Assembly: GCA_016785955.1 (NCBI GenBank)
Contig: JAEUWH010000035.1
Coordinates: 1 to 64,000, forward strand
From: Pseudobdellovibrionaceae bacterium
GTDB taxonomy: Bacteria > Bdellovibrionota > Bdellovibrionia > Bdellovibrionales > Bdellovibrionaceae
DNA: 64,000 bases
Reading direction: 5' to 3'
In this document: piece by piece, positions 46,830 through 63,736 of the stretch
Layout of the letters: every line of letters starts with the position of its first letter
How positions within the stretch are numbered: the first letter of the stretch is position 1
Notes under the pieces: model-generated
What the model was told of the DNA's origin: nothing
Seen by the model: the letters and a program-made list of their open reading frames with translations, nothing else
Databases searched by the model: none
Made by a program: the position numbers and the translations under genes

Positions 46830-47639
46830 ATGTGTATGGGACGTTTTTTTCACTATGCAATCTATCCGTTGTTCATCATTTCGTTTGTTGTCCCGATGTT
46901 GGTGATGTACGACCGCTTGTCGCCGGCAGAACTCCGACACCTTTCTTTAGCTTTGATATCAGGCTGCGTGCTCGCCGCATTTTTACTAGAGTTTTTTTTG
47001 CCTTTTGACCAAAACTTTAGAATGTTCTCTGGACAATTTCTTTGGGATAGCTATTTTACATTCATCCAGTTGCCTTTAGTTTCGATCGCAATCGAATGGA
47101 TCGGCAATGTCCTTAAAACCCAACAAATTCCGACTCTAGGTTTTTTATGGCCTCATCATTTAAATCCCATTGCCCAAATGTTTATGATTCTGGTTATAGC
47201 TGAATTGTTTTACTTTGTTTACCACTTCGTGAGCCACAAATCAGATTTACTCTGGTCCATCCATAAGTACCATCACCAGTACGCAACCGTATATTGGAAC
47301 AATTCAGCCACATTTCATGCCATTGATATTACCTTAAGCGCTTTTTTTTACTTTTTACCACTCCTTATGTTTTCAGTTAGCCCATATGTTCAATATTTGT
47401 TTGTGACGCTCAGTGGAGTCACGGGAATTTTGATTCATGTAAACTTTAGGCACAGCACACGTTTTATAAACAAGATCTTTAACACCTCGGAACTGCATCG
47501 TTGGCATCATCAGCCCGAAGCCATGTCTAAAAATTTTGGCAAAGTTTTATGTATTTGGGATTGGATTTTTAACACCCGCTACGAACGCGATAATAAATAT
47601 ATTTTGAAAGCTAACCATGCCATCAGCCAAGCTAAATAA
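46830..47639 (+). CDS. Fatty acid hydroxylase/sterol desaturase-family di-iron membrane enzyme
   Basis: A 269-residue membrane protein with four to five hydrophobic segments and the histidine boxes of the superfamily: HFVSH (about 131-135), HKYHH (about 144-148), and HVNFRHS and ELHRWHH near 203-227. Such enzymes hydroxylate or desaturate fatty acyl chains, sphingoid bases or sterols at a di-iron centre in the membrane. It is the first gene of a plus-strand series (46830-51589) and overlaps the next gene by 23 bp. In this setting a long-chain-base or acyl hydroxylase is the best guess. ATG 46836 is an alternative start; no clear ribosome-binding site is seen. Confidence 0.82.
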   Translation: MCMGRFFHYAIYPLFIISFVVPMLVMYDRLSPAELRHLSLALISGCVLAAFLLEFFLPFDQNFRMFSGQFLWDSYFTFIQLPLVSIAIEWIGNVLKTQQIPTLGFLWPHHLNPIAQMFMILVIAELFYFVYHFVSHKSDLLWSIHKYHHQYATVYWNNSATFHAIDITLSAFFYFLPLLMFSVSPYVQYLFVTLSGVTGILIHVNFRHSTRFINKIFNTSELHRWHHQPEAMSKNFGKVLCIWDWIFNTRYERDNKYILKANHAISQAK

Positions 47640-49017
47640 TCTTTCAGCGTCGCTTGTATTGTTAAATCTTGTCACGCTTTCTGATCAAGAACTCGCACGA
47701 TTAAAATATACTCTGACAGCGATTCAAACCGATTCACTCTGGACCGAATGGCTTGATCTGGTACAATTGAACGCCTGCGAAAGCTTGATTTATCTGAATC
47801 TCGTGAAATGGAATTTGGAAATTCCAGATTCTATTCAGGCCCAATTGAAATCCGTATTTGATAAGGTTGCAAAGCAAAATGCACTTCGCAACGAGGAAGC
47901 TAAACGTATTTTTTCACAACTCTCTTCGGCACATATTCCGTTCGTTGTACTCAAAGGCCAAGCCTTAACTGAATTCCTATACAATTCGCCCTACTACAAA
48001 AAAATGAATGATGTTGATTTTCTCGTACCAAAATCATCTTTGGATCAGCTTCAAAAGCTATACATTCGATTGAATTTGGAATGTGCGGCCAGTATTGGCG
48101 GACGGAACTATCGCAAACAAGAAAATTTTTCCCATCACTGGCCGCCTTTTTTTACTCGAAATTTGAATTGCGTGCTAGGAACGCACTGGAATCTTGTCAC
48201 CCCCCTATCAAAAATTAAAATCCAGGAACAGAATCTTTGGCAAAACACGGTTCCTCATTCCTATTTGGGCATTCCTTGTTTTCGCTTGAACGATCTTTAT
48301 TTCTTCTTTCACCTCACGGTTCATTTAGCTTATTACAAGACAGGACTTAAAGAGTTATGCGATCCACTGAATTGGTACCGTTTAAAACACGCAAACATTG
48401 ACTACCAAAAATTTTTAGATCTTGTGCAACAATGCCATGCCTATGATCCCGTTTATAGAAATTTATACTTAATGAATTGTGTTTTCCCAGAGGCCACTTT
48501 ACATAAATGGATTCAAGCCCTGGAACCCAACGTCTCGTCATTTGTTGTCCAAGACACTCAATTTCGCTGCCGAGAACCTTACTACGTCGTACGATCACGC
48601 AGTACGCAAACCAGCCGCATCGAGAAAAGCTACGCGCTTTTTTCATTGAGTGACATGTTTTATGAAAAGTTTTACTTTCTTCTTAAAATGTGGACGCATT
48701 TTCTGCTTCCCAAACAACGCGACGTCATCCATATGCAAAGCTTGGACGACTTGCCAGGACGATTCACCCTGCTCCTTGGATACATTAAAACTCCCTATTT
48801 GCTTTCGCGCGTTTTTGCATTCGATTTGGGCTGGAAATTGCATTTTCTATTAATCGCCAAACATCACTATGATCTTTTAAAGTCGATTGCATATTTTATT
48901 CTGGGAGTATTTAGCTCAGGACGAATTGTTTCAATCCCGCAAACACTGCCGCAGAAGATAAAAACTTTAAATTTACCGATCGACTCAATCGAACAAATTA
49001 AGGATAAATTGGAATAA
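47617..49017 (+). CDS. Nucleotidyltransferase-family protein (PF14907-like)
   Basis: A 466-residue protein whose region at about 108-145 has FVVLKGQALTEFL and KKMNDVDFLVP. These match the pol-beta-like nucleotidyltransferase fold, with the two metal-binding acidic residues in NDVDFLV. Members of this family (NTP_transf_5) are uncharacterised and often lie in biosynthetic gene clusters. The C-terminal 250 residues show no known domain but include several aromatic-rich helices. It might activate or modify a head group. That is inference. It ends 2 nt before the next gene. Confidence 0.65.
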   Translation: MPSAKLNNLSASLVLLNLVTLSDQELARLKYTLTAIQTDSLWTEWLDLVQLNACESLIYLNLVKWNLEIPDSIQAQLKSVFDKVAKQNALRNEEAKRIFSQLSSAHIPFVVLKGQALTEFLYNSPYYKKMNDVDFLVPKSSLDQLQKLYIRLNLECAASIGGRNYRKQENFSHHWPPFFTRNLNCVLGTHWNLVTPLSKIKIQEQNLWQNTVPHSYLGIPCFRLNDLYFFFHLTVHLAYYKTGLKELCDPLNWYRLKHANIDYQKFLDLVQQCHAYDPVYRNLYLMNCVFPEATLHKWIQALEPNVSSFVVQDTQFRCREPYYVVRSRSTQTSRIEKSYALFSLSDMFYEKFYFLLKMWTHFLLPKQRDVIHMQSLDDLPGRFTLLLGYIKTPYLLSRVFAFDLGWKLHFLLIAKHHYDLLKSIAYFILGVFSSGRIVSIPQTLPQKIKTLNLPIDSIEQIKDKLE

Positions 49018-49019
49018 GA

Positions 49020-50543
49020 ATGAAAACAACCCAATGGACTCGAGAAGAAAGCAAAGAACGATTTCCAAATTCACTGTCACCCTTGGGATGGAGTGTAATG
49101 CAGTCCGCACTAGAAATAAATCTTGAGTCTATCAAAAAAGAATTTTGCCTAAAAAAATTATCAGCGAATCAAGTCACGCGCTGGGTAGACGGTTATCTGT
49201 ACTCAAGTCATAATTTTTTCAGAAAAATCCCACTGACTCACTTTGCTTGGATACCACTGATTGGATTTGGCTGGAAATTGGTTGTGCATTTTCTTGCGAG
49301 TCTATTTTCTTCCGCACATGGAACATCGTTGAAAATTCGTTTTCTAAATCGCCTTTATGAAAAGGAATTGTCCCACAAAATCCAATTGTTAATTTCTGAA
49401 TGGACATCCCAGCTGCCTAGCCACATACAAAACTTTGAAGACAACAAAGCCGCTAGTCTGACATGGAATGTGTCCGATGTTCATTTTCAAAAGCTCTTAG
49501 ACAAAATCGAACGTGATGGTTGTGCGTACAATCGTTTGGACTTTGCCATTTATTTCTATAAAAATATTTTGAAATCTTTGATCGAAAAAATAAACACAGA
49601 ACAATCCAACCGCATTGCTTTACTGACAGGACAAAGTGCCTTTCAAATTGGAAAGTACATCAGTCAAACTCTAGCCGAAGCACACTCGTTAAGTTCTACG
49701 GCACAGCAAATTGCCTTTACACAATCTCGTCTGGGGCATTTGTCCCTAGGCTGGGATATTGCCCAACTTACATTTGCCGAACAGCCCGCGCTGATGAGCA
49801 AAATGCTGTCGGACCCCGCGAACCGACTGATCTCGACCCCCGCGTATATGGCTATCTCGCCAATGGAAGAACAGTTTATTCAGCTGGTGTCCTGCGACGA
49901 ACAACACCGCTTTTACGCATCCTATCAGTTTCCCTATGTCCGAACGCTATTGAAGCAAATCAACGAGCAGTGGCTAAAAAGAAATATTTTAGAAAAAGAG
50001 GACGATTTTTACTGCCTAACCTTATCGGAAGTCAAACAAACGCATTCACGATTGGTAACGGCAGAGCCGATAGATATCGAGACAATCCAGTATAAGGTTA
50101 AAACACGCTTGTCTTATCTGAAACCCTTCGCTCGAGACGTATTGAACACCGAAGATATGCACGCCCAAGAAGATATCTTTTACTCATCTAAAAATTCGTA
50201 TCAACCACTAGATATCGAAAATGTTCAACAATGGCAGGGAGTCAAGGTCAGCCCGGGCGTTGCTCAAGGACAAGCCTATTGGGTCACGGACTATAAAAAT
50301 TTGGCTGATTGCCCCGATCAACGCATTGTCCTTTGTGAAACCCCCTCACCCAATCTGCACACTGCATTTATAAAAGCCAAAGCCATCGTTGCCGAAACAG
50401 GGGGGATCTTGAGTCACGGCGCCATCGTCGCTCGAGAACTGCAGATCCCCTGCATTTTACAAGTACGAAACTTGAAAAGCATCAAAAACGATGATTGGAT
50501 CGAAGTGGACGCACATTTCGGCATCATTAAGAGACTTTCATGA
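49020..50543 (+). CDS. Phosphohistidine swivelling-domain protein lacking ATP-grasp
   Basis: A 507-residue protein. Residues about 410-507 are a PEP-utilising mobile domain: VSPGVAQGQAYWV, then TGGILSHGAIVARELQIPC with the phosphorylatable His at about 466. The N-terminus starts WTREESKERFPNSLSPLGWSV, resembling the central helical substrate-binding region of rifampin phosphotransferase-like enzymes. The ATP-grasp domain that phosphorylates the His in those enzymes is missing, as is the PEP-binding barrel. It must therefore receive phosphate from another protein or be inactive. It overlaps the next gene, a ThiL-like kinase, by 4 bp. I can name the fold but not the reaction. Confidence 0.75.
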   Translation: MKTTQWTREESKERFPNSLSPLGWSVMQSALEINLESIKKEFCLKKLSANQVTRWVDGYLYSSHNFFRKIPLTHFAWIPLIGFGWKLVVHFLASLFSSAHGTSLKIRFLNRLYEKELSHKIQLLISEWTSQLPSHIQNFEDNKAASLTWNVSDVHFQKLLDKIERDGCAYNRLDFAIYFYKNILKSLIEKINTEQSNRIALLTGQSAFQIGKYISQTLAEAHSLSSTAQQIAFTQSRLGHLSLGWDIAQLTFAEQPALMSKMLSDPANRLISTPAYMAISPMEEQFIQLVSCDEQHRFYASYQFPYVRTLLKQINEQWLKRNILEKEDDFYCLTLSEVKQTHSRLVTAEPIDIETIQYKVKTRLSYLKPFARDVLNTEDMHAQEDIFYSSKNSYQPLDIENVQQWQGVKVSPGVAQGQAYWVTDYKNLADCPDQRIVLCETPSPNLHTAFIKAKAIVAETGGILSHGAIVARELQIPCILQVRNLKSIKNDDWIEVDAHFGIIKRLS

Positions 50544-51589
50544 TACAAACTAAAATTTATGAAATAGAAAAAATCACAAGACTGATCGCAGCCTTCAAGC
50601 GAGCGCCTTACCAACGCAATCGTATTTATGAATCCGATAGCGAAATTCTAGATTTCGGCTTGGAAAAAAATATCGCTATCACAAGTGACATTTTGTGTGA
50701 AGAAATTGAATGGGGCTTAATTTCTGATCCTTACGTCATGGGATGGGTTAATGTCACCGCTAGCCTATCTGATCTGGCGGCCGTCGCCGCCGAACCACTA
50801 GGGGTCTTGGTTGGGCTCAGCCATTCGCAATCCACCAGTCAGGATTTTTTATCTCGATTTTGGCAAGGCACTCGCGAAGCCCTCGACGAACATCAGACAT
50901 TTCTGCTCGGAGGCGACACAAACATATCAAATTCATTTTTAGTTTCCTGTACAGGGATCGGACAGCGGGCAAAATCGACATTGCTGAATCGCAAAGGCAT
51001 AAATGACGGCGACCTAGTTTATCTTTCCGGACCCGTGGGAATGGGAACCGCTGTTGGTTTTGCTAATTTTGTTGTCAAGCCAAAGTCCGCAACCATGGCC
51101 TCGCAAATCGAACCTATGTTTAAACCCAAGGCTCGTTTATCCGAAGCTCACGTGATCGCAAAATTTGCAAGTAGCTGCATTGATACCAGTGATGGCTTAC
51201 TGGCGGCCGTCGATTTTTTATCTCAACTGAATCAAATCCAAATGGAATTGACACTTTCGAAAACACATTTCCATTCCATTTGCTGGCAGCTGGTTGATCA
51301 GTTAAAAATTCCGTGGATTTTGTTTTCAAGTATTCATCTAGGTGAATTCGAACTGCTCTTTACGATTCCACCACAAAATCAAACCGCTTTTGAAATGGAA
51401 ATGCGCCAGAAAAATTTTTCGTTTTTAAAAATTGGACAAATACGTTCGGCCTTTAGTCAGCTACACGTGAATGGGTGTGCAATTGATTTAAATCCTATAC
51501 GTAATTTACTGAATGACTTGAAAGATCCATCTCTTTATCTTGGTTCGCAACAGCGTTGGGCCTCGGGATTGGCGATCCCCCTAATCTAG
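50540..51589 (+). CDS. ThiL/AIR-synthase-like ATP-binding protein, copy 1
   Basis: A 349-residue protein of the PurM/ThiL/SelD/HypE superfamily. ATP and Mg-site segments are AITSDIL, NVTASLSDLAAVAAEP (about 71-86), LLGGDTN (about 124) and CIDTSDGLLAAVDFL (about 210). This is the ThiL pattern, but the gene lies in a lipid-type locus without thiamine genes, and a second divergent copy lies at 56179-57222. A role as kinase of another phosphorylated intermediate is therefore likelier than thiamine-phosphate kinase, though true ThiL is not excluded. It is translationally coupled to the swivelling-domain gene. Its stop codon falls inside a 24-bp dispersed repeat. Confidence 0.75.
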   Translation: MIQTKIYEIEKITRLIAAFKRAPYQRNRIYESDSEILDFGLEKNIAITSDILCEEIEWGLISDPYVMGWVNVTASLSDLAAVAAEPLGVLVGLSHSQSTSQDFLSRFWQGTREALDEHQTFLLGGDTNISNSFLVSCTGIGQRAKSTLLNRKGINDGDLVYLSGPVGMGTAVGFANFVVKPKSATMASQIEPMFKPKARLSEAHVIAKFASSCIDTSDGLLAAVDFLSQLNQIQMELTLSKTHFHSICWQLVDQLKIPWILFSSIHLGEFELLFTIPPQNQTAFEMEMRQKNFSFLKIGQIRSAFSQLHVNGCAIDLNPIRNLLNDLKDPSLYLGSQQRWASGLAIPLI

Positions 51590-51609: not shown

Positions 51610-51632
51610 AGCAACGACAAACCTAAATTTTC

Positions 51633-52316: not shown

Positions 52317-52339
52317 ATAGTATGAAACGATAAAACAGA

Positions 52340-53353
52340 ATGAACGACAGAGATACCATTATTTTAGTCACTGGTGCCGACGGTTTTGTGGGAACGCATT
52401 TATGTCGCTCGTTGATCAAAAAATATACTGTTTATGCTTTTATACTACCCCAGCAAGAGTCTCACTTTCTCGAAAAGTGGGGCAAAGACAGCACCGAACA
52501 TCTTAAAATTATAAAAGATAAATTTGAAAATCTACATACTTATCGAAAACTTTTACAAGAGGTTCACTATGCTGTTCATTGTGCAGGAACTATGCTCGGT
52601 GCCCAGGAACACAACTACATCGAGTCAAACTTAATCACGACGCGACTCTTGCTGCAAAACTTGCCGACGGATTTGAAAAAAATAGTATTTCTATCTTCCC
52701 AGAGTGCCATAGGCCCCAGCCCATCCCCAGATTACAAACTCAAAGTCAGCGATCACCCAACCCCAATTTCATTTTATGGACAAACAAAATTGCTGGCCGA
52801 AAAAGATATACTTAATTCGCCAAGGCCGGCAATTGTATTTAGACCGGCCTCTATTCTGGGACCAGAAGATAAAACGTTTCTCGAGTTTTTCCAAATGGCA
52901 GATAAAGGAAGATTTCCCATTCTCGGACAAAAACAAAAACAATTTCAATTTGTTTACGTTGACGATTTAGTTTCTGCGATCGAACTTGTTTTATTTTCCG
53001 AACAAAAAAATAAAATCTATCATATAGCCCATCCCGAGATAGGAAACTGGGAACGGATGCGATCAGCGATGGAAAGACATTTAAATCGACCACTGCGCAT
53101 TTTGTTTATAAATCCAACACTGACTCGCTGGTACTTGAAGTTTTTCGACGTACGTGAAGCCTTCACTGGCATAAAAACAAATAGAAACCTGAACAAATTT
53201 GGTGAATTCATGGCCCCGAACTGGATATTCGACACCTCTGATTTTGAAAAAGACACTGGTTTCAAATACACTCATAACTTGAATGAAACGATATCATCCA
53301 CCTACTCATGGTATCAGCGGCATTCTTGGACACGCCCTAGCTTAACGCGCTAG
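52340..53353 (+). CDS. NAD(P)-dependent epimerase/dehydratase-like extended SDR
   Basis: A 337-residue extended short-chain dehydrogenase with the Rossmann motif TGADGFVGTH (about 11-20), a Ser in FLSSQSA and the catalytic pair Tyr146/Lys150 in YGQTK. FRPASILGPEDK and VYVDDLV are typical of the family. The next gene encodes the alpha-oxoamine synthase. Caulobacter ceramide reductase (CerR) belongs to this family and sits in a similar setting, so a reductase of a 3-keto lipid is the favoured guess. A nucleotide-sugar enzyme is the alternative. Confidence 0.8.
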   Translation: MNDRDTIILVTGADGFVGTHLCRSLIKKYTVYAFILPQQESHFLEKWGKDSTEHLKIIKDKFENLHTYRKLLQEVHYAVHCAGTMLGAQEHNYIESNLITTRLLLQNLPTDLKKIVFLSSQSAIGPSPSPDYKLKVSDHPTPISFYGQTKLLAEKDILNSPRPAIVFRPASILGPEDKTFLEFFQMADKGRFPILGQKQKQFQFVYVDDLVSAIELVLFSEQKNKIYHIAHPEIGNWERMRSAMERHLNRPLRILFINPTLTRWYLKFFDVREAFTGIKTNRNLNKFGEFMAPNWIFDTSDFEKDTGFKYTHNLNETISSTYSWYQRHSWTRPSLTR

Positions 53354-53404: not shown

Positions 53405-54682
53405 ATGAAAAAAACATCTACATGGAACGACGACACCTCAGATGCAGTGAACTTACTAACGCTGGCAAGTCAATTTAAAGGTCAGATAGATTCTGATGTC
53501 GATTATTTTGAAAATTACTTTCGTCCACTCTACAACCAAGGAAAATTACTTTATCATCGTGAAATTATTTCGCCGGTCGACCGTCGCGTTTTAGTTAAAG
53601 ATCCTGTAACTGGAAAAATCATCGATATGATTATGATGGGGTCGAACAACTATCTTGGTTTCGCCAATGATCCAGAAGTCAAAGAACGCGCCAAGCAGGC
53701 TATTGATTCGCAAGGACTCGGTATGGGCGGTCCCATGCTATTAAATGGAACGTCTCGGTTACATCGTTCCGTCGAAGAAAGACTTGCACACTTTAAAGGT
53801 AAAGAAGACTGTATCATTCTGCCGTCTGGCTATATGACAAGTCTTACCTGGGTGACAACCTTAGTTTCCGACGAGGCTCTTCTTTTCTTTGATGAAATTT
53901 CTCACGCATCGGTTGTTGATGGCATCAAACTTGGTCGCAAAACCGCATTTCGCTTTAATCACAATGATCCAGATGATCTAGAGAAAATGTTGAAGAAATA
54001 TCGCGAAAAAAATGCCCACCGCGATTTGTGGGTAACCACACAAGGTGTTTACTCGATGAACGGCGAACTGGCTCCGGTAAAAGAAATAGCGCTAGTCTGT
54101 GAAAAATATGATGCCAAATACGTAATTGACGACGCCCATGGTACCGGGGTCATGGGCAAAGGACGAGGCATGGCCGAAGAAGTCGGCATCAGTGGAAAAC
54201 TGAAGTATGCGATGGGAACATTCTCTAAAGCATTTTCAATTACAGGCGGTTTTTTTGCCGCAGATAAAAATACTATTAACTTTTTAAGATTTTTTTCTCG
54301 TCCCTATTTTTTTACAGCATCACTGTCCCCCGTTTCAATGGCTGTTATCTTGGCCTGTTTAGACATACTAGAGAAATCTACTGAACGCGTAGACAAGCTT
54401 CATGATAATATTCTCTTCTTTTATGATTGCTTGGACAAAGCTGAAATAAAATACACCCGCACCGGCAGCGCCATTGTTCCGGTCTTTCCACCGACTCCAG
54501 AAAGTTTTCGCGTTCTTTCCCAAAAGCTGCACGACAATGGACTGTTTGTGAACCCTATCGAGCCTCCCGGAGTTCCCAAAGGTGGCGAACGTTTTCGCGT
54601 GTCGTTGATGGCCACTCACACCAAACAAGATATTCAGGATGCCGTAAACATCTTAAAAACGACCTACGAAAGATACGCATGA
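53405..54682 (+). CDS. Alpha-oxoamine synthase, serine palmitoyltransferase-like
   Basis: A 425-residue PLP enzyme that would condense an amino acid with an acyl thioester to give a 3-keto amino lipid. Motifs: SNNYLGF (about 79), DEISHASVVDG (His stacking on PLP), DDAHGTG (Asp binding PLP) and GTFSKAF with Lys275 as the PLP Schiff base. The N-terminal extension of about 70 residues and the lipid-gene context favour an Spt-type enzyme over BioF or Kbl, and no biotin or threonine genes are nearby. GMGGPMLLNGTSRLH differs from textbook Spt, so another acyl or amino acid substrate (for example cysteate) is possible. It overlaps the next gene by 4 bp. Confidence 0.8.
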   Translation: MKKTSTWNDDTSDAVNLLTLASQFKGQIDSDVDYFENYFRPLYNQGKLLYHREIISPVDRRVLVKDPVTGKIIDMIMMGSNNYLGFANDPEVKERAKQAIDSQGLGMGGPMLLNGTSRLHRSVEERLAHFKGKEDCIILPSGYMTSLTWVTTLVSDEALLFFDEISHASVVDGIKLGRKTAFRFNHNDPDDLEKMLKKYREKNAHRDLWVTTQGVYSMNGELAPVKEIALVCEKYDAKYVIDDAHGTGVMGKGRGMAEEVGISGKLKYAMGTFSKAFSITGGFFAADKNTINFLRFFSRPYFFTASLSPVSMAVILACLDILEKSTERVDKLHDNILFFYDCLDKAEIKYTRTGSAIVPVFPPTPESFRVLSQKLHDNGLFVNPIEPPGVPKGGERFRVSLMATHTKQDIQDAVNILKTTYERYA

Positions 54683-55278: not shown

Positions 55279-56182
55279 TCTGTTTATTAATAGTCATTCG
55301 TATGGAAAAAATTCGGCTTCAAAGTGGAAGAAGATCGAATCAGAACTGCCTTTTCTGACACCCGTATTTCTTGCACCAGCAGAAATAAATTCAGTTTTAA
55401 GAAAGTATACTCTGAACAACGACCTTATTTATATTGGCGGCGGTGACGGTACAATTCATCATCTGATTAATTCTGTTTTCCAAAATGATCAAGATTTTCA
55501 GCGAATTCAAGTCGGTATTTTAGGGTTAGGCAGTTCGTGCAGTTTTTTGAAGTCAGTTCCATCTGTACAAAAAATTCACGGCATCCCCACCTTGGCAACA
55601 TCCGAGCAAGAAATCAAAATTGATCTTGGGCGAGTCAAATTCAAAAATCAAGATGGCCTATGGGAATCTAAATATTTTGTCGCCAATGGCTCACTTGGCT
55701 TTTTAGCATTAGGCAATCAACTTTTTAACCAACCGGGCGGACTAAACCAGCTGTTTAAGAGTTTTTCGACGGAAGCCGCCAATAATTTTATTTTTCTAAA
55801 GAGTCTTTTCCAGTATCATCCAACAAAAATTTCTGTGAACGGCGCATCCGCAAAAGACTATTTAAACATTCAATTCCTTAAGTCAAAATATTATACTGGA
55901 GAGTTTTACTTTGAACGTCAAAACTTGCTACACAGCGGACAAATAGATTTTCATTTATTCGACTATGTTGGACGCTGGCACACTTTGAATGTATTTTATC
56001 ACCTGATGACAAAAAACGAATATCCCAGGCCAACGCACCAAGAGTATCGAGATCAAGCCATGTCCATCAAGGCGAGCACGATAATCCCTCTGGAATTGGA
56101 TGGCGAAATATACTTTGGCAGTGAATTTTTGATCGAATGTGTTCCTCAAAAACTCAGAATCATGTCAGGAGAGTTGTTGTGA
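55268..56182 (+). CDS. Diacylglycerol/ceramide kinase-like protein
   Basis: A 304-residue protein with the DAGK catalytic-domain hallmark IGGGDGTIHHLIN (Gly57-Thr62) and the C-terminal beta-rich half of the family (LELDGEIYFGSEFLIE). Such enzymes phosphorylate diacylglycerol, ceramide or long-chain bases. The Caulobacter ceramide kinase CpgB belongs to this family, so a sphingolipid-kinase role is attractive. ATG at 55268 overlaps the preceding gene by 11 bp; ATG 55217 is an alternative that would lengthen the overlap. No good ribosome-binding site is seen, suggesting coupled translation. Confidence 0.75.
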   Translation: MKFSLFINSHSYGKNSASKWKKIESELPFLTPVFLAPAEINSVLRKYTLNNDLIYIGGGDGTIHHLINSVFQNDQDFQRIQVGILGLGSSCSFLKSVPSVQKIHGIPTLATSEQEIKIDLGRVKFKNQDGLWESKYFVANGSLGFLALGNQLFNQPGGLNQLFKSFSTEAANNFIFLKSLFQYHPTKISVNGASAKDYLNIQFLKSKYYTGEFYFERQNLLHSGQIDFHLFDYVGRWHTLNVFYHLMTKNEYPRPTHQEYRDQAMSIKASTIIPLELDGEIYFGSEFLIECVPQKLRIMSGELL

Positions 56183-57222
56183 ACTTGCCATCACTAAATG
56201 AATTTGCGGATTTACAATCCCATATAAAAAATTTTTCACGTAGCCCCAAACAAACACATAACTTTTTTCACAGTGATGCTGAAGTTTTGCAGTTAGCAAA
56301 CGATAGCTTTCTAGCGATAAGCCTAGACATCGTAGGTGACGAACAAGCCTGGGGGTTAATTCAAGACCCAAAGAACTTGGGACGACATGCGCTGGAAACC
56401 GCACTCAGTGATTTGGCCGCCGTGGGGGTTTCGCCTGCTGGCTTTCTACAAGGATTGGTTATTGGTCAAAATCACGATTCAAAATTTATTGAGGGTATTT
56501 TAAATGGGCTTAACAATACCGCCCAAAAGCACCGGCTGTTTTTATACGGCGGAGATACCGCTTCGGGGCAAGTCTTCAGCTTACACTTAAACGTCGTAGG
56601 ACACTCTCGCACCAAACCGCTTTCACGCTTGGGCATGGGAACTACAGACAAAATTTACACGACTCAGAAGCCCGGCAAAGGGAATGCGTTGGTCGCACAC
56701 AGAGTAATGGATAAAAATCACAAACTTGATGAAACCCCGTATCTTGCACAGGCCCGTATTCCTGAATCTCAAATTATTAAAAATTATGCAACCTGCATGA
56801 TTGATTCCAGTGATGGGTTTTTAAATTCGTTAGATCTACTAGTACGAGTGAACAATATCGGTATCTCATGCACGTCTTCTCTGGATGCTATGTTGAACCC
56901 ATTGGCTCTAGCAGCGGCCCAAGCCTACAACATTTCCCCATGGGCATTGCTGGCGGGAGAGTTTGGTGACTATGAACTGATATTCTCCGTACCGGAATCC
57001 AAAAGTGCAGAGTTTGAAAAAAAATACGAAGAAAAATTTTCTAATTTGGTTGAGATCGGTATCGCGATTGAACCCCCTGAGTTGCAACTGACTAATTCCC
57101 ACAATAAAGTTATTTCCTATGACGCTTCAATCGCTCGAAATTTATATCGAGAACTTTCCGAAACAAAGCCCGAACACTATCTTACTCGTTTCTTAGAGCT
57201 GGGAAAAAATCTGGGATTTTAA
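56179..57222 (+). CDS. ThiL/AIR-synthase-like ATP-binding protein, copy 2
   Basis: A 347-residue PurM/ThiL-superfamily protein starting at GTG 56179, which has AGGAGA upstream and overlaps the lipid-kinase-like stop by 4 bp. Motifs: HSDAEVL, ETALSDLAAVGVSPAG, LYGGDTASG and CMIDSSDGFLNSL. It is only moderately similar to the copy at 50540-51589 (for example AISLDIV versus AITSDIL), so the pair is not a recent duplication. Each copy ends one plus-strand half of the locus. Both probably act on phosphorylated intermediates, or assemble together. Confidence 0.75.
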   Translation: MNLPSLNEFADLQSHIKNFSRSPKQTHNFFHSDAEVLQLANDSFLAISLDIVGDEQAWGLIQDPKNLGRHALETALSDLAAVGVSPAGFLQGLVIGQNHDSKFIEGILNGLNNTAQKHRLFLYGGDTASGQVFSLHLNVVGHSRTKPLSRLGMGTTDKIYTTQKPGKGNALVAHRVMDKNHKLDETPYLAQARIPESQIIKNYATCMIDSSDGFLNSLDLLVRVNNIGISCTSSLDAMLNPLALAAAQAYNISPWALLAGEFGDYELIFSVPESKSAEFEKKYEEKFSNLVEIGIAIEPPELQLTNSHNKVISYDASIARNLYRELSETKPEHYLTRFLELGKNLGF

Positions 57223-57241: not shown

Positions 57242-58000
57242 CTACTTAATTTCACGGAAGCTTTTATCCATTTGCGCTTTGATGATTTTAAAGTAAGTAC
57301 GATCCGGCAAAATAGACGTCGACTGCGTTAAAAGCTTTAAATCTAAAGGAAATGAAATATCCGTTTTGTTTTTCTCTATCTGCGAAATGATGTGCATGGC
57401 TGCTTTTTCAGAACTCCACATTTTTTCGGTTTTCACCTGCATTTGTCGTGACATCGCCGTGTCCACCAAACCCGGACGAATCTCATGAAAATTTACACCC
57501 TGTCCTTGCAAATCCATGCGTAACCCCTCGAAAAAAACGTGCTGGGCCGCTTTCGTGGCAAAGTACGCAGCACCATGAGGCAAACTGCGTTTCACCATCA
57601 AGGCAGAAACCATTCCCACTAGCCCTGTTTTTCTTTCTAGAAAGTCAGGTAGCCATACCTCTAGGCAGTTCAAAAAACCAAAAAAATTAGTCAACATTAT
57701 GTTCTTCGCATCTTCTGATTTGAAATTATTGAAATCCGTAACCTGTGCAACACCAACACTGTATATGAAACCATCGATGTGCCCCCATTTGGCTTTAAAC
57801 ATACTCGCCGCTTCGCGAATATCCGCCAGTTTTGTTACATCTCCCTGACAATGAAGAATATTTTCATTTGGCTTAGAAAACGTTCGGCGACTAAATGTTC
57901 CAACCCGATTTTGTTTTGAAAGTTCGAGAGCTAATCCTTCTCCAATACCACTCGAAGCGCCATACACAATAAACGTTTTGTCTTTCAATTCCATATTCAT
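57242..58000 (-). CDS. Classical short-chain dehydrogenase, 3-ketosphinganine-reductase-like candidate
   Basis: A 252-residue classical SDR with the cofactor motif GASSGIG (about 14-20) and the catalytic triad Ser132, Tyr146 and Lys150 (YFATK). The C-terminal third has ISFPLDLKLLTQSTSILPDRTYFKIIKAQMD, a region that could associate with membrane lipids. Reduction of a 3-keto lipid made by the oxoamine synthase would fit, but SDR specificity cannot be read from sequence. Its start codon is only 12 bp from the start of the divergent P450 gene. Confidence 0.78.
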   Translation of the reverse strand: MNMELKDKTFIVYGASSGIGEGLALELSKQNRVGTFSRRTFSKPNENILHCQGDVTKLADIREAASMFKAKWGHIDGFIYSVGVAQVTDFNNFKSEDAKNIMLTNFFGFLNCLEVWLPDFLERKTGLVGMVSALMVKRSLPHGAAYFATKAAQHVFFEGLRMDLQGQGVNFHEIRPGLVDTAMSRQMQVKTEKMWSSEKAAMHIISQIEKNKTDISFPLDLKLLTQSTSILPDRTYFKIIKAQMDKSFREIK

Positions 58001-58012: not shown

Positions 58013-59323
58013 ATGTCCCTTAATTCAGTGCCTCCAGGTCCTTCAAGCTTACCTTTGATCGGTGTGATTCCTCAACTCATTCGTGATCCCTTAGGCACGT
58101 TCGTATCTATGCATAAGAATTTTGGTGGCTTTGTACGTTTCCAGAAAGGACGCTCGTTTCGTTATATTTGTTTTGATCCAGAGGGAATTCATCACATCTT
58201 GGTAAATAATAGTAAAAACTTCACGAAAAGCCGACGTTACGAAAAGTTGAAAACATTTCTAGGGGCTGGACTCGTCACAACCGAGGGAACCCAATGGCAA
58301 AGCCTGCGTAAAACTGCGCAACCCGGGTTTGCACCACCTGCCATGAAAGACTATTTTCATACAATTAAGTCTGTAACAGCCGCCACCATTGGTCGTATTC
58401 AGGAAACGGGCAGCATGGATTTACAGGCACAAATGATTGAGCTGACTTTGTCCATCATCAGTCAAACTATGTTTCACTTAGATTTGGCTTCACAAACCGA
58501 AGTTTTATCTCCCGCCTTTGAGTACTGTGTTTCTTTTATGAATCATCGCATGGAAGCCTTTATTGACTGGAACGAATACTACACAACGTCCGAAGGAAAA
58601 AAATTTAATTCATACAAACAGACTATTGACCGTTTAATGTTGGATATAATTTCCGAGCGGAAAAAAAACCTGGGTCAACACCGGGACTATTTAGAATCTC
58701 TGTTATATGAACAAAATAAAAATCCTCAAGAAATCACTGATCATGTCATCAAAGATCAATTGATTACATTTGTAATGGCTGGCCACGAAACTTCGGCAAA
58801 TATGCTGAGTTGGACTATACTCTTACTGCTTAAACATCCCGAAATTTTGAAATCAGCAACAGAACTGTGCCGCACGATTAACCCTTCCGAATTCGGCGAC
58901 CTGACCCAGCTGGCGCCTTTGGAAAATATTTTGAAAGAATCACTGCGCTTGTTTCCCCCGGTATGGATGATTTCACGAGACGCCATTAACCAAGACACCA
59001 TTCTTGGTTTTTCAATCGAGGCAGGCAGCACCATCAATATATGCCCCTACGTCACCCACAGAAGTCCTCGGTATTGGGAGCAGCCGCTAGAGTTTATTCC
59101 GTCACGTTTCGAAAGAAACTATAATAAAAAAGCGTTCATCCCGTTTTCGTCGGGACCTCGTGCCTGCATTGGAAGTCAGTTGGCTTTACTGGAAGGAAAA
59201 TGGATCTTGTATCAGATCTTGAAAAATTTTGATTTAGCTTGTGATCGCTTAGACTTGGAACCACACATCAGTGTGGTTCTCAAGCCAAAGTCTTCTCACA
59301 AAATTCAATGCACTAAAGCATAA
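58013..59323 (+). CDS. Cytochrome P450
   Basis: A 436-residue soluble-type P450. Diagnostic motifs: PPGPSSLPLIG proline-rich start, oxygen-activation helix AGHETSANML (about 257), ExxR in ESLRLFP (about 308) and heme-binding FIPFSSGPRACIG with the proximal Cys (about 380-392). The pattern resembles CYP102/CYP4-like fatty-acid hydroxylases more than macrolide P450s. It probably hydroxylates a fatty acyl or long-chain-base intermediate in this locus. Electron-transfer partners are not encoded nearby. Its last 11 bases overlap the convergent exported-protein gene. Confidence 0.9.
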   Translation: MSLNSVPPGPSSLPLIGVIPQLIRDPLGTFVSMHKNFGGFVRFQKGRSFRYICFDPEGIHHILVNNSKNFTKSRRYEKLKTFLGAGLVTTEGTQWQSLRKTAQPGFAPPAMKDYFHTIKSVTAATIGRIQETGSMDLQAQMIELTLSIISQTMFHLDLASQTEVLSPAFEYCVSFMNHRMEAFIDWNEYYTTSEGKKFNSYKQTIDRLMLDIISERKKNLGQHRDYLESLLYEQNKNPQEITDHVIKDQLITFVMAGHETSANMLSWTILLLLKHPEILKSATELCRTINPSEFGDLTQLAPLENILKESLRLFPPVWMISRDAINQDTILGFSIEAGSTINICPYVTHRSPRYWEQPLEFIPSRFERNYNKKAFIPFSSGPRACIGSQLALLEGKWILYQILKNFDLACDRLDLEPHISVVLKPKSSHKIQCTKA

Positions 59324-61064
59324 TACTATTCAAAGTCGCACCGATCATGAGCCCACCCCAGCTTTGATTGGTCACGCGAAGAATTGTTTTGATATCGCCA
59401 TCACTACTGACAGGACGTCCCTCGGTCGACATTCTAAAATAAGGCACGTAATTTTTTTCCACCCAAGAGATTGGATTGCCCTTGAAGTAGTTACGATAAC
59501 GAACGCGATTACCTTTGGCATCCATTACATCAGACTCTTGCTCGACATTGCCCTTCTCAAAATCATCTGGTAAAAAATCACGAAGATTTTTAGGCGAGTC
59601 AAAATAAAACTTTACCGTGTTGACCTGGACCACGTCACTGCTGATCGCCGATCGAATGGCCACAAAGTGGTCGTCCAATTTCGGTAAACTGTCAAGTTTA
59701 CCTCTCTTAATTGCCGTGATTTGAGCATCGGTTAACTTGCCTTTTAAAACACTCGTCATTCGATTCAAACTGTTTTGTACCACAGTCGTAAAAGGGCGGA
59801 ATATCGCGCCATCTAGAGCCAAAGAATTTTCATTAGGCCGCTGTTTGATTTCATTCCATGCTAAATTAGCCGCTTCGTTAGACGCTAATGACGCCCCATA
59901 AGCCAACCTCATATTTCTTTGCCCATTACTTAAAAGCGTAAACAATCCCTCGTTTTTTGATTTAGACAGAAATTTCTTGATCTTATCAGTGCGCTCTTCC
60001 GCCGATGCACCTTTAAAAACAACATCACGTTGCTCTACAGGTTTAAAGGCCTCTTTGGGATTGAAAACATCCATTTCCTCGACGCCATATAAAAATCCCA
60101 ACTCTCGAACCAGTGCCAACAAACCATTTGCATTATAACTGTTGAATGTATGAATCGCCGCAATGTTGCCATAGAAATTAGAAAGAATCGCATTTCGTTC
60201 CGCTTCCCCTAACGCCCGAAAACGGTCAGAATTGTCTTCATAGGAATTGGTGCCTGCAATAACTTTATTATCCCAGACAGCTGTTTTATTTTTCAAATCG
60301 ATTTTATTCAATTTATTAACGGCTAGTTCCAAACGCGGTAACGCATCAACCGCTAACCAGTTTTGAATATCACGCTCTGTAGAAAACTGAGAGATTCCAT
60401 AATACTCAGCATCCTTAGGATTGCTGTACTTAATTTCCACAATCTCTTTAGCCGCTTTATTATCAAAGGTTTTTGTCGCCGTGTACTTGAATGGTTCCGA
60501 AATATACCGAAAAACAACTTTCATATTCTCGGAATCATTATCCACCAGAAAAACATTTATATTGCTGGCCATTTGCTTGGCCATTGTTATCAAGTAGCTT
60601 TGTACGATTGGGTACTTTCTCGCTAACGGGCGTACACGATGAAAAAAGCCGCGATATGATCTAAGAGGAATCAATTGCGCGGCAAATAACTCGAGATCTT
60701 CACTGCGAGAACCAGGTTGCTCAAGCTCAAAAAGAATTAAATCTAATGCGTCCGCCGCCGCTGACGATCCCGGTGTATCTTTTAAGGCTAGAAATCGATC
60801 CCGATACGTCCTGAAGTCCGATTGCAAATTTGCGTCAGAAAGAACCGCCGCGATCTTACGCTCGCCACGTTTCTTCGCCTGCTTCATTTCTTCGGCAAAT
60901 TGTCCGGATGTATAGTGTGGTATTTCTGGCAGACTGGGTTCCGCTTCGATCGCTGGCACATATGGAACCCCATCGAACGTTTTATTGCTGATTTTCTTTG
61001 TGGACGCGGCCACGACACTTAACATCCCCAAAATTGCTAGGATGAAAACTTGCAACTGTCTCAT
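59313..61064 (-). CDS. Exported protein of unknown function (583 aa)
   Basis: ATG at 61064 follows GAGG and opens a signal peptide (about 1-21, cleavage after VVAA). The mature protein is mainly helical, rich in Asn, Lys and Ala, with an N-terminal proline-rich stretch (VPYVPAIEAEPSLPEIP). No lipobox, catalytic motif or membrane segment is obvious. It is transcribed divergently from the MMPL transporter with 70 bp between, so it may be its periplasmic partner. I recognise no family. Confidence 0.65.
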   Translation of the reverse strand: MRQLQVFILAILGMLSVVAASTKKISNKTFDGVPYVPAIEAEPSLPEIPHYTSGQFAEEMKQAKKRGERKIAAVLSDANLQSDFRTYRDRFLALKDTPGSSAAADALDLILFELEQPGSRSEDLELFAAQLIPLRSYRGFFHRVRPLARKYPIVQSYLITMAKQMASNINVFLVDNDSENMKVVFRYISEPFKYTATKTFDNKAAKEIVEIKYSNPKDAEYYGISQFSTERDIQNWLAVDALPRLELAVNKLNKIDLKNKTAVWDNKVIAGTNSYEDNSDRFRALGEAERNAILSNFYGNIAAIHTFNSYNANGLLALVRELGFLYGVEEMDVFNPKEAFKPVEQRDVVFKGASAEERTDKIKKFLSKSKNEGLFTLLSNGQRNMRLAYGASLASNEAANLAWNEIKQRPNENSLALDGAIFRPFTTVVQNSLNRMTSVLKGKLTDAQITAIKRGKLDSLPKLDDHFVAIRSAISSDVVQVNTVKFYFDSPKNLRDFLPDDFEKGNVEQESDVMDAKGNRVRYRNYFKGNPISWVEKNYVPYFRMSTEGRPVSSDGDIKTILRVTNQSWGGLMIGATLNSIML

Positions 61065-61134
61065 TTCACACCTCGTATTTTTTAATTTAATAATACCCAC
61101 AGAAAGTTTCTATAATTATCATTATAATTGCAAT

Positions 61135-63315
61135 ATGAAAAAACTGTGCGTCTTTTTTTACCAAATCTTGAAGTTTTCTTACCGTAATCCAACCTGGGTT
61201 ATCTCTATTTTTTCCATCGTATTCTTGATTGCAATTTACTTTTCTAGCCAAGTTAAAACTATCTACGACATCCAAGACACCATCGGCCCAGACTTTGTGA
61301 CTTACCAATCACTAGAAAATCTTCGCACCGAGTTTCATCGTCGCCACAATTTAACTTTACTTTTGTCCAGATACGATAACGCGGAACTTTCCGCCGACGA
61401 TCATTGTCATATCCAAAAATACTTTTCACATCTTGCACTGAACTCGCTCGACACAATTCAAAAAATTGAAAGCATCTACGACGTACGTACTATTGCACTG
61501 ACCAAAAATGGGTATAACTATCCCTCTTTGCTGGGCTTGAACTGCGAAACAATACCTACACAAATCGATACCAACTGGCGCGAAAACGTTAAAAACTCAC
61601 CCTGGAAAAAAATACTCTCCGGAGAAAAAAGCAACGACGTCATCATAGATATTTTCTTTCAAACCGAAACATCGCCAGACCAAATTCGCGCGTTACTATC
61701 AAAAATTCAAAACGACTTTCCAAATGACAAATACCACCTCGACTTTACGGGCACGGGGGCATTCCAAATGTTTGTCAACGAAGCCTATATTCAATCGCAG
61801 TCACTGAATATCATCATCATCATCATCTTGCTGCTGACATTCAAAATATTTTTTGGCGGATTCAAGTCCGGTCTCATTTTAATTTTTAGCCTTGTCTATA
61901 CCACCATTATTGTGACCGGCATTATGGGCGCCCTTGATTATCCAATCGATTTTCTGACCCAAAGTATATTTACAATCATGACTATTGCTACCCTCGAAGA
62001 TTTTATCTTTGTCGTTTTCCTTCGACAACGAAAAGGGCACAACTGGAAAACATCTTATCGGAAAATCATCGTTGCCAGCTTTTTCACCTCGGTCACGACA
62101 TTTATTGGTTTCATATCTTTGGTGACTTCTGATCTAGAAATCATCAAACGCTTTGGTATCGTGACGGCACTGGGCTGCCTGATTGAATGGACCGTTGTAT
62201 TTGTTCTTCTGCCGGCACTTGAGCAAAAATACTCACGTCTTCGACTGCAATCGGTGGTTTCTGAAATGGATCTCTCCACTCGGTTTCTTAACCGATTAGA
62301 ATCTTGGCATCCTGGACCAATATTTACTATTCTCATTAGTCTTTTTTTCATTTCTTGGATTCCTGGCGCCCAAAACCTGGTAACCAATGACTCGCCCTCC
62401 AAAGTATTTCAACAAGACCATCCATTCATTACGTCTCTAAACCGAATAAAATCTGATCGTGGCTGGGAAGCCCAAGTGTCTTTATTATTCAAAGACTATG
62501 ATACTATTGCCGCCCATCCTGAAATAGTAGAAAAAATTAAAACCCTACCCATCGTTAAAGCCGTCGAGAACCCGCTGGATGTTATGAACTACTATCTTAG
62601 CAAAATGCCCAACCATCTGCACCGCTTGATCCAATCCGAAGTCGATAGCAGCTTCTACTTCAAAAAATTTTTAAGCAGCACAGGGATGGGACAAGTCGTG
62701 CTTTATGTCTCGGAATCCGAGATCAAGTCCATTCGTGAACTGCAAATTCACGTCGATGAAATTTGTCAAAAAAAATGTGAGTTGGCGAATGGCCTTGTTT
62801 CCTATACGGAATTTGGCGAACGCGTCCCCCGAACCTTGTATGAAAGTATGATCAGCGGATTGCTATTGATTGCATTTATTCTGGTCGCCTTGGCCTTCCT
62901 TACAAATACGGATAACATTTGGGCCATTCTGTTGTCCTCTTTCTGGGGACCTTGCTTTGTCATCACGGTGCTTTGGGTTACGAATGTGAATATTAGCTAC
63001 TCGACTTGTATTTTTGCTTCAATCTGCCTAGGACTAGCCGGCGACAATGCCATTCAATATATGTTCACCTCCAGACGCGACAAACTGGCTGAAAAAGTCA
63101 GTCAACTATCACAACCCACAATCATTATGAGTTTACTACTTATGGCTATTCCTTTGACCTTAACACTGTCTGACTTTGTAAATATGGTTCAGCTCGGAGT
63201 GCTTTTCATTTTTGGAATGATGTCGAATTTAATCGGGGATTTATTTTTATTGAAGTCGTATCTACAACTATTTAACAAAAAACTGCCCAATTCCAAAACA
63301 ACAGGACATAATTAA
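61135..63315 (+). CDS. MMPL/RND-family lipid exporter
   Basis: A 726-residue protein with two repeats, each a transmembrane helix (about 20-40 and 395-415), a periplasmic domain and a group of five helices, the RND/MMPL layout of about 12 helices. Such proteins export lipids such as hopanoids or mycolate-type lipids. SSTFMTIATLEDFIFVVFLRQRKG-like segments, read as IFTIMTIATLEDFIFVV, and CLGLAGDNAIQYM carry polar/acidic residues within helices, as in proton-driven RND pumps. ATG at 61135 is chosen; the longer frame from 60985 lies over the divergent gene. Two TATAAT hexamers (61111-61116 and 61123-61128) precede it. It probably moves the lipid made by this locus. Confidence 0.8.
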   Translation: MKKLCVFFYQILKFSYRNPTWVISIFSIVFLIAIYFSSQVKTIYDIQDTIGPDFVTYQSLENLRTEFHRRHNLTLLLSRYDNAELSADDHCHIQKYFSHLALNSLDTIQKIESIYDVRTIALTKNGYNYPSLLGLNCETIPTQIDTNWRENVKNSPWKKILSGEKSNDVIIDIFFQTETSPDQIRALLSKIQNDFPNDKYHLDFTGTGAFQMFVNEAYIQSQSLNIIIIIILLLTFKIFFGGFKSGLILIFSLVYTTIIVTGIMGALDYPIDFLTQSIFTIMTIATLEDFIFVVFLRQRKGHNWKTSYRKIIVASFFTSVTTFIGFISLVTSDLEIIKRFGIVTALGCLIEWTVVFVLLPALEQKYSRLRLQSVVSEMDLSTRFLNRLESWHPGPIFTILISLFFISWIPGAQNLVTNDSPSKVFQQDHPFITSLNRIKSDRGWEAQVSLLFKDYDTIAAHPEIVEKIKTLPIVKAVENPLDVMNYYLSKMPNHLHRLIQSEVDSSFYFKKFLSSTGMGQVVLYVSESEIKSIRELQIHVDEICQKKCELANGLVSYTEFGERVPRTLYESMISGLLLIAFILVALAFLTNTDNIWAILLSSFWGPCFVITVLWVTNVNISYSTCIFASICLGLAGDNAIQYMFTSRRDKLAEKVSQLSQPTIIMSLLLMAIPLTLTLSDFVNMVQLGVLFIFGMMSNLIGDLFLLKSYLQLFNKKLPNSKTTGHN

Positions 63316-63352
63316 TCCGATCATGTTTCTATAACCCAAAAGGTATTAGCCA

Positions 63353-63736
63353 ATGAAGATCCTTTTTTTTGATGGTTACTGCGTACTCTGCAACGGGCTG
63401 GTTGATTGGCTCATTCGAAATGATCACAAACAAAAAATTCAGTTTGCATCCTTGCAAGGAGAAACTGCGAAGCAAATTTTAGGGCACAACGCCGAAAACA
63501 TGAATACCGTAATACTTTGGCATGATGGCCAAATCCTGGATCAGTCGGAAGCAATTCTTCGAGTCATTGGTGACCTCGGTGGAATTTGGAAAATGACCGC
63601 ATTGTTTTATATCGTACCAAAGAGCTTACGTAATAGCATCTATGCATTTGTGGCACACAACAGATATCAGTTTTTCAAAAAACGCGATACGTGCCGTATA
63701 CCTTCACCAGAAGAGCGCTCCCGACTGCTTCCATAA
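63353..63736 (+). CDS. DCC-family thiol-disulfide oxidoreductase-like (DUF393)
   Basis: A 127-residue protein with the family signature FFDGYCVLCNG, carrying Cys10 and Cys13 after Asp7, plus KIQFASLQG and DQSEAILRV. DUF393 proteins are predicted thioredoxin-like redox proteins. No signal peptide is present, so it is cytoplasmic or membrane-associated. It starts 37 nt after the MMPL gene on the same strand and may be its last operon partner. Function in the locus is unknown. Confidence 0.85.
   Translation: MKILFFDGYCVLCNGLVDWLIRNDHKQKIQFASLQGETAKQILGHNAENMNTVILWHDGQILDQSEAILRVIGDLGGIWKMTALFYIVPKSLRNSIYAFVAHNRYQFFKKRDTCRIPSPEERSRLLP

Follow-up and report, generated by a model that had tools for sequence, protein, structure and literature searches.

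Which lipid do the genes at positions 46,830-63,736 of the window make, i.e. of bases 1-64000 of contig C10 (110,403 bases) from the 4.34 Mb genome of a Pseudobdellovibrionaceae bacterium? The first-pass annotation had read them as a sphingolipid-type biosynthesis and export locus around an alpha-oxoamine synthase (AOS). On balance, we lean towards a dedicated cluster for the biosynthesis and export of a non-ceramide, amine-bearing long-chain lipid. Below, the analysed genome is called G000, G001-G005 are genomes of the same genus, and L numbers denote fetched stretches.

Gene content of the locus

The list of open reading frames (ORFs), together with Pfam and NCBIfam profile searches, gives fifteen genes in this region, and the cluster extends ~6.6 kb beyond the window on C10 (the last three lines):

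46830-47639, plus strand: fatty-acid-hydroxylase (di-iron) family protein, 269 amino acids (aa); PF04116, E 3e-22, with His clusters
47617-49017, plus strand: PF14907 nucleotidyltransferase (hereafter NT5), 466 aa; E 7.9e-31, 107.9 bits, exceeding the cut-off of 31.2
49020-50543, plus strand: PEP-utilisers phosphohistidine swivel-domain protein without PPDK_N, 507 aa; PF00391, E 2e-17
50540-51589, plus strand: ThiL-like kinase a, 349 aa; AIRS, PF00586
51633-52316, minus strand: HAD hydrolase (phosphatase-like), 227 aa; PF00702, E 8.9e-13
52340-53353, plus strand: extended short-chain dehydrogenase/reductase (SDR), epimerase family, 337 aa; PF01370, E 5.7e-23
53405-54682, plus strand: AOS, 425 aa, Lys275 in GTFSKAF; Aminotran_1_2, E 8.3e-47
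54679-55278, plus strand: thymidylate-kinase-like (TMK-like) P-loop kinase, 199 aa; PF02223, E 4.6e-4, under its cut-off; P-loop GLDGSGK
55268-56182, plus strand: lipid kinase of the diacylglycerol-kinase (DAGK) fold; PF00781 (DAGK_cat), E 5.3e-10; GGGDGT; ORF listed from 55217, with the Met at 55268 the likelier start
56137-57222, plus strand: ThiL-like kinase b, 361 aa; AIRS, E 1.9e-15
57242-58000, minus strand: classical SDR, 252 aa; adh_short, E 3e-31; GASSGIG and YFATK
58013-59323, plus strand: cytochrome P450, 436 aa; PF00067, E 7.6e-76; heme motif FSSGPRACIG, ExxR, AGHET
59313-61064 (ORF listed to 61100), minus strand: probably exported protein adjoining MMPL, 583-595 aa; signal-like N terminus by eye
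61135-63315 (61135 being the likely start), plus strand: MMPL/HAE3-type RND transporter, 726 aa; PF03176, E 3.7e-9; TIGR00921, E 1.9e-16
63353-63736, plus strand: DCC1-like protein, doubtful as a cluster member; PF04134, E 4.5e-25
C10 64900-65541, minus strand, beyond the window: methyltransferase
C10 65565-68138, minus strand: TamH-like transaminase/thioester-reductase fusion, 858 aa; PF00202 at 49-481
C10 68131-70638, minus strand: PPDK_N plus PEP-utilisers protein (PigC/RPH-type phosphotransferase), 836 aa; PF01326 and PF00391

The genes and motifs named in the first-pass annotation (hydroxylase, extended and classical SDRs, AOS Lys275, DAGK GGGDGT, P450 and MMPL) are all present. They account for seven of the fifteen; NT5, the swivel protein, the two ThiL-like kinases, the TMK-like kinase, the HAD hydrolase, the 583-595-aa protein and the DCC1-like protein had not been named. 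That the genes mostly overlap is only half right: 7 of the 14 boundaries overlap as listed (6 if the 59313-61100 gene and MMPL begin at their likelier starts), while the remaining gaps measure 2-70 bases. Three of the fifteen genes lie on the minus strand. Beyond the window, two small ORFs (one FKBP-like) precede the methyltransferase, and the TamH-like and PPDK_N genes share 8 bases.

The hydroxylase scores 92.8 bits with the OlsE-like NCBIfam model (cut-off 475 not reached); it is 70-72% identical to its counterparts in G001, G004 and G005, and a PF04116 protein also occurs in the G284 cluster (L139). The classical SDR has 186 NCBIfam matches, including KdsR at 69.8 bits against a cut-off of 400. 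For the protein at 59313-61064 a Pfam search gave no match. Its homologues adjoin MMPL in G001, G004, G005 and G284, and in G012 its homologue lies in the cluster, away from MMPL. A predicted structure of the 59313-61100 protein was set aside as a poor model (mean pLDDT 46.8). A counterpart of the DCC1-like gene was not seen in the stretches fetched from G001, G004 and G005.

Conservation of the cluster

The cluster is a genuine conserved unit and not a chance grouping, because the block is conserved across genera. Of the six genus genomes searched, four show synteny. The 12-gene block from the fatty-acid hydroxylase to the P450 is syntenic in G001, G004 and G005, where the AOS is 88-91% identical to that of G000 and its neighbours 48-74%. 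G002 and G003 have neither the AOS nor a TamH-like gene, and in all six genus genomes AOS and TamH are either both present or both absent.

Scanning 290 genomes of the phylum with the AOS alignment gave 928-939 bits within the genus, followed by G012 (821), G194 (746), G284 (576), G183 (404, with a second copy at 376), G144 (401) and G222 (389). Below these clade members there is a clear step, with G070 at 348 bits and all others listed under 306, which places the AOS clade (>370 bits) in 10 of the 290 genomes and in 7 genera. In the stretches fetched from these ten genomes (L043 and G284 being one genome, counted once), NT5 and a PPDK-type protein were found in all ten, TamH in nine (not G012), a TMK-like kinase in nine, the HAD hydrolase in nine (not G222, an 11-kb contig), a ThiL-like kinase in eight, DAGK in eight and MMPL in eight (for G284 in a stretch fetched separately). 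The swivel-domain protein, whose matches include the PPDK proteins, has no count of its own. The stretches were of unequal length (G222 and G183:C32 being whole short contigs), and therefore the absences are weak evidence. A comparison of gene order across genomes, proposed along with the first reading, thus found the neighbours co-conserved, as synteny within the genus and as shared gene sets in other genera.

The association of NT5 with the AOS is far beyond chance, even when counted by genus. NT5 occurs in 13 of the 290 genomes, i.e. the ten of the AOS clade plus G228, G168 and (weakly) G087; 11 of these 13 hold a clade AOS if G228 is included, in which that gene is cut by the contig end. 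With G228 counted as lacking the AOS, this amounts to 10/10 AOS-clade genomes versus 3/280 others (Fisher 2.9e-16). By genus it is 7/7 versus 2/155 (Fisher 7e-11), which is the fairer count because the test treats genomes as independent.

Identity of the alpha-oxoamine synthase

With curated models, the AOS scores nearly level for BioF (319 bits), serine palmitoyltransferase (SPT, 316) and KBL (312), in each case under the cut-off. None of the three SPT equivalog cut-offs is reached (316/640, 306.3/500 and 235.9/670 bits); the control, the Pseudomonas veronii AOS from an SPT-type operon, passes the cut-off of 500 with 614.6 bits. In a 42-row tree, which held two SPT references, the protein falls in a 14-row clade of its own (support 100/99), together with the other cluster AOS proteins, two Draconibacterium proteins and one Persicobacter plasmid protein. 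The KBL, SPT (group support 94/97) and BioF/ALAS rows all lie outside it. L020 was removed from the tree for its shortness, and L007, L009, L012, L016, L017, L019, L024-L026, L050, L051, L057 and L091-L109 were not put in. Grouping the AOS with KBL was rejected by the approximately unbiased (AU) test (p = 0.014), while grouping it with SPT gave a borderline p = 0.035, for groups chosen after the tree had been seen. The phylogenetic check that had been suggested for BioF or Kbl ancestry therefore places the enzyme with neither.

Compared with the solved SPT of Sphingobacterium multivorum, all catalytic residues (Lys, the stacking His, Asp, His, Thr and Arg) are kept; the kept positions are 52, 54, 138, 185, 210, 212, 213, 241, 243, 244 and 367 in S. 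multivorum numbering. In the substrate loop, Ser81 is replaced by Pro and Arg82 by Met, Pro or Ala in all 14 clade rows. In the solved enzyme, a water-mediated contact joins Ser81 to the substrate carboxylate, according to the available part of PMC10196870. Serine is thus the likely amino-acid substrate. A search of G000 with this query found no second AOS at E <= 1e-20.

On the Persicobacter plasmid (L075 14830-18949), the clade AOS, a split SDR and a P450-like protein stand in a row, and the N-terminal stretch of the P450-like protein looks Rieske-like by eye.

Is the product a ceramide?

If the locus were a canonical bacterial sphingolipid locus, the AOS would be SPT, the SDR CerR and the DAGK-fold protein a ceramide kinase, with ceramide synthase (CerS) and acyl carrier protein encoded elsewhere, and the product would be a hydroxylated, head-group-modified ceramide. 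We consider this unlikely. Some features do point in its direction. The best match of the AOS in the PDB is S. multivorum SPT (284 bits, versus 264 for KBL), and Ser243 of the TxSK motif is common to the AOS, SPT and the PigH-type row, with Gly in the KBL, BioF and ALAS rows. The extended SDR distantly resembles the SDR of the P. veronii Spt operon (22.5% identity), which makes it CerR-like only in a general sense, as far as its sequence tells. Caulobacter uses a DAGK-type ceramide kinase, CC_1160 (PMC11324152, in the part available), and a title in a reference list speaks of phosphonosphingolipids in Bdellovibrio. Against these stand the unreached SPT cut-offs, the place of the AOS outside the SPT group (with its borderline AU value) and the replacement of Ser81 and Arg82 throughout the clade. 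Moreover, the available part of PMC11324152 describes no TamH, NT5 or PigC/RPH-type genes for Caulobacter. A survey likewise regards a sphingolipid role as improbable for AOS proteins beyond the Spt-like clade (PMC11334938, in the part available).

The search for a candidate CerS may point the same way. The query was YghO from the P. veronii Spt operon region, a candidate CerS by its gene place, and it matched in 5 of 39 genomes at E <= 0.001. In G040, G043, G044 and G048, all of the same order as G000, the match lies 200-350 bases from an AOS match; the AOS proteins of G043 and G044 group with SPT in the tree, those of G040 and G048 being outside its sampling. G000 gave no match at E <= 0.001 with this query, which represents one CerS type only. 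Therefore, it seems that the order has an apparent SPT-CerS pair, which G000 does not share. The fifth match is weak (8.8e-6) and lies near a TamH gene in G023, where a distant relative of the CerS candidate may thus accompany TamH. It falls in L134 9140-10558, a 473-aa ORF between a PPDK gene and TamH with no Pfam match.

The description of the locus as sphingolipid-type is therefore supported only in part, and in the strict sense it is not supported. Of the two options left by the first-pass annotation, that CerS and acyl carrier protein are elsewhere or that the product is not a ceramide, the evidence favours the latter; a ceramide would require that the AOS uses serine and that an N-acyltransferase of another kind than the one tested is present. 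What stands of the proposed hydroxylated, exported long-chain-base lipid is a lipid pathway started by an AOS, with oxygenases, a kinase and an MMPL exporter, conserved as a unit.

The TamH/PPDK module

The TamH-like fusion combines an N-terminal class III transaminase (PF00202, 49-481) with a C-terminal acyl-thioester reductase (605-855 aligned to 4ppm). Lys316 as the PLP lysine, the NAD-binding motif GIVGFAGNIG (G676/G679) of the reductase and Cys815 as the acyl-accepting cysteine are invariant in 7 aligned sequences, Cys815 being equated with C887 of PtTamH by motif alone. The nearest solved chain, matching both halves, is 4ppm, which we take to be PigE. According to the available part of PMC9594044, PtTamH (transaminase followed by thioester reductase) converts a C12 fatty acid to the amine with its partner TamA. 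In G004 (C156 7778-10359) the TamH-like gene is split into two frames in the assembly; it is intact in G000, G001 and G005.

The adjoining PPDK_N protein has only PF01326 and PF00391 and no PEP-binding barrel, with its phosphohistidine candidate in GGLLSHAALIARE. Its nearest solved structures are 5fbs and 5hv1, presumably rifampin phosphotransferase (RPH). No cut-off is reached with PigC (244.7/1300 bits), RedH (252.8/1350) or RPH (243.5/999), and the best curated model is PEP-synthase-like. TamH and PPDK genes adjoin or overlap in 7 of the 9 AOS-clade genomes with TamH.

Phosphate-handling proteins

In NT5 the LKG and MND-x-D motifs are invariant in 10 aligned sequences. Its structure is predicted with a pLDDT of 81.5, and a fold search gave no match at E <= 0.001; nucleotidyltransferase-type folds appear at E 0.012-0.2, which amounts to family support only. 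In the swivel protein at 49020-50543, His466 in TGGILSHGAIVAREL is invariant in 8 aligned sequences. ThiL-like kinases a and b score 160.9 and 124 bits with the thiL model (cut-off 184.15 not reached). Copy a keeps the SD, GGDT and SDG motifs in an alignment with 5cc8, and copy b does so by eye; these motifs we take to be ATP/Mg-binding. A ThiL proper, i.e. over the thiL cut-off, was found in 0 of 12 genomes of this group versus 9 of 14 control genomes.

Further ThiL-like genes lie outside the cluster, in G000 (C82 14077-14868) and in L127, L128 and L129; some are weakly similar and none is over the cut-off. The C82 gene is set apart from the other cluster families. In G168 (L136 9054-11086) an NT5 homologue comes immediately after a TMK-like gene, and the fetched stretch gave no AOS match. 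Members of both families are also neighbours in G144, and they may therefore work as a pair.

Proposed pathway and its alternatives

The genes that had gone unnamed, together with those beyond the window (TamH, PigC/RPH type, NT5 and ThiL-like), shift the picture from the decoration of a ceramide to a natural-product-like, amine-lipid pathway. We infer substrates, step order, the union of two modules in one product and export as follows. In module A (AOS, NT5, ThiL-like and TMK-like kinases, HAD, DAGK and SDRs), the AOS would condense an amino acid (most likely serine) with a long-chain acyl thioester to a 2-amino-3-keto lipid, which the SDRs would reduce and the di-iron hydroxylase and P450 hydroxylate. 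The DAGK-fold kinase would phosphorylate a hydroxyl, while the ThiL-like and TMK-like kinases and NT5 may extend or activate the phosphate or head group, which the HAD hydrolase would trim. In module B (the TamH-like fusion and the PPDK_N/PEP-utilisers protein), the fusion would reduce an acyl thioester to the aldehyde and transaminate it to a fatty amine, to be phosphorylated or ligated by an ATP-driven phosphohistidine enzyme of the PigC/RPH kind. The methyltransferase would tailor the product, which MMPL and the exported 583-aa protein would carry out.

A number of observations count against this scheme. No carrier protein came up in a crude motif scan of window 43,001-64,000 and of L027, and the Pfam-searched genes include no acyl-activating enzyme. 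The roles of the ThiL-like, TMK-like and NT5 proteins are suggested by family names, with the ThiL-like and TMK-like proteins under curated cut-offs. In the stretches fetched, G012 lacks TamH and ThiL and G183 lacks DAGK, and therefore not all parts of the cluster seem obligatory. TamH and PPDK are not adjacent in G284 and G194. Finally, TamH occurs in 27 of the 290 phylum genomes, in 18 of them without a full clade AOS (G228 among them, where the contig end truncates the AOS), and module B may thus have a separate product.

This last point leads to the best alternative, in which two separate clusters merely adjoin, the window genes making one lipid and the TamH/PPDK pair another fatty-amine product. 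It would explain G023, where TamH is found with two PPDK genes, an AurF-like gene and a phosphatidylserine (PS) decarboxylase gene and no AOS in the stretch fetched, and in G000 the MMPL, DCC1-like and FKBP-like genes do separate both blocks. It is nevertheless improbable in our judgement, as AOS, NT5, PPDK and TamH lie within ~20 kb in G144, G222 and G284, as do AOS, PPDK and TamH in G183. In L043 (G284) the PPDK gene even lies inside an NT5-PEP-utilisers-PPDK-ThiL-AOS run, and the matched presence of AOS and TamH in all six genus genomes also speaks for a single system.

The co-occurrence of an AOS, TamH and a PigC-like enzyme would also suit a prodiginine- or tambjamine-like pyrrole lipid. 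Such a route would have a PigH-like AOS set up the pyrrole (or pyrrolinone), which the PigC-like enzyme would couple to a fatty amine provided by TamH. A PigH-type row does belong to the larger group around the AOS clade (96/90), but that group is not specific to PigH. The proline-to-pyrrole genes known from these clusters are absent from the Pfam-searched genes (no genome-wide search for them was made), and NT5, ThiL, TMK, DAGK and HAD would be left without a role, which makes such a product quite unlikely. Least probable is a product of the aliphatic azoxy type, or another N-oxidised fatty amine, for which the DAGK-fold kinase would act like VlmJ on a serine-derived hydroxyl. For azoxy clusters, PMC9379638 (in the part available) describes phosphorylation and dehydration of a serine moiety by VlmJ and VlmK, as well as a conserved ferritin-like protein. 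A ferritin-like gene (of the L043:569-1513 type) recurs in G284, G183, G144 and G222, with a weak Pfam match in G284; its G144 homologue has no Pfam match and the focal genus cluster has no such gene. The MmgE/PrpD gene at 43421-44929, moreover, sits with PrpB- and PrpC-like genes.

Variation between lineages

Across lineages, the cluster looks like a common core whose decoration changes. In G012 a phosphoenolpyruvate (PEP) mutase over its cut-off stands at the cluster start, and the G194 cluster (L110 12964-15785, 3925-5007) holds a PAPS-reductase-family protein, an EF-Tu-like/APS-kinase fusion and a sulfotransferase. G001, G004 and G005 have two extra genes between MMPL and the methyltransferase, which in G001 (L037 1206-2988) encode a DUF3419 protein followed by a PS-decarboxylase-family protein. 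We take DUF3419 to be BtaA-like, and the pair could add an aminopropyl group. A phosphonate head group was rejected for G000, since PEP mutase is over its cut-off only in G012 and G048 among 59 genomes; the gene matched in G000, with 128 bits, lies beside PrpD at 42.5-43.4 kb.

Tentatively, and with the odds still against it, these genes may define a new class of amine lipids, combining a sphingoid-type chain (from the AOS), a tambjamine-type fatty amine and PigC-type coupling with lipid-phosphate activation by DAGK, ThiL-like, TMK-like and PF14907 proteins. The head groups would vary by lineage, being perhaps sulfate in G194, phosphonate in G012 and aminocarboxypropyl followed by decarboxylation in G001, G004 and G005.

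Neighbouring genes

A lipid A/outer-membrane block lies on the minus strand at 20996-30212 of the window (Omp85/POTRA, OmpH, LpxA-like, LpxB, LpxK and a lipid A acyltransferase), and the genome therefore seems to make lipid A besides the cluster lipid. Between its LpxA- and LpxB-like genes stands a Gfo/Idh/MocA oxidoreductase, an arrangement that would presumably suit diamino-sugar lipid A of the GnnA type.

Adjoining the cluster at 41341-44929, also on the minus strand, is a PrpC-, PrpB- and PrpD-like block, its PrpC-like gene being named by position alone. Membership of these methylcitrate genes in the cluster was rejected, as the PrpD gene (43421-44929) stands beside PrpB-like and PrpC-like genes. 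The block is 91-96% identical between G000 and G004, against 50-74% for the non-AOS cluster genes. In G023, the TamH/PPDK cluster without this AOS lies ~4 kb from a PrpD gene. With PrpD near the clusters of both genomes, the site may be a recurrent insertion place.

Comparison with known systems

A literature search, for which most subscription papers were out of reach, found no paper describing this gene combination. If our reading is true, the locus represents a biosynthetic logic missed by searches for SPT plus CerS or for prodiginine genes, and it would offer the ThiL-like paralogues and PF14907 ('uncharacterised nucleotidyltransferase') a place in a pathway that can be tested. The clade AOS genes reach no curated cut-off and could be mistaken for SPT, BioF or glycine acetyltransferase. 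The locus would also caution against reading ceramides into a row of AOS, SDR and DAGK genes.

Among cultured bacteria, Draconibacterium sediminis and D. mangrovi (L047 and L048, ~8900-15300) have a similar run of six genes, with a ThiL-like protein, a same-clade AOS, DAGK and a classical SDR together. A UbiA-family protein and a B12-type radical SAM protein stand in this run in place of TamH, PPDK and NT5 (Pfam results being for L047 only). RPH-type dikinases (5fbs, 5hv1) likewise combine a PPDK_N ATP domain with a phosphohistidine swivel domain; the PPDK_N protein here is well under the curated RPH cut-off, and the 49020-50543 protein keeps the swivel without PPDK_N.

With the tambjamine cluster (PtTamH) and the prodigiosin cluster (PigE, PigC, PigH) the locus shares a transaminase-thioester reductase fusion in the domain order of PtTamH (PMC9594044, in the part available), a PPDK_N plus PEP-utilisers enzyme of the PigC kind next to the fusion, and an AOS. 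It differs from both in that the NCBIfam cut-offs for PigE and PigC are far from reached and no bipyrrole genes are among those searched; neither cluster is known to have the many kinases and the PF14907 protein found here.

The phosphosphingolipid locus of Caulobacter (CC_1152-CC_1168) resembles the present one in holding an AOS, a dehydrogenase, a DAGK-type ceramide kinase and proposed nucleotidyltransferases in one region, its lipid being thought to be moved to the outer membrane (PMC11324152, in the part available). Judged by that part, the cluster genes here lack AcpR, AasR and the candidate CerS, and the AOS stands outside the SPT group. In place of a second LptC/F/G set, as in Caulobacter, there are TamH, PPDK, ThiL-like, TMK-like, P450 and MMPL genes.

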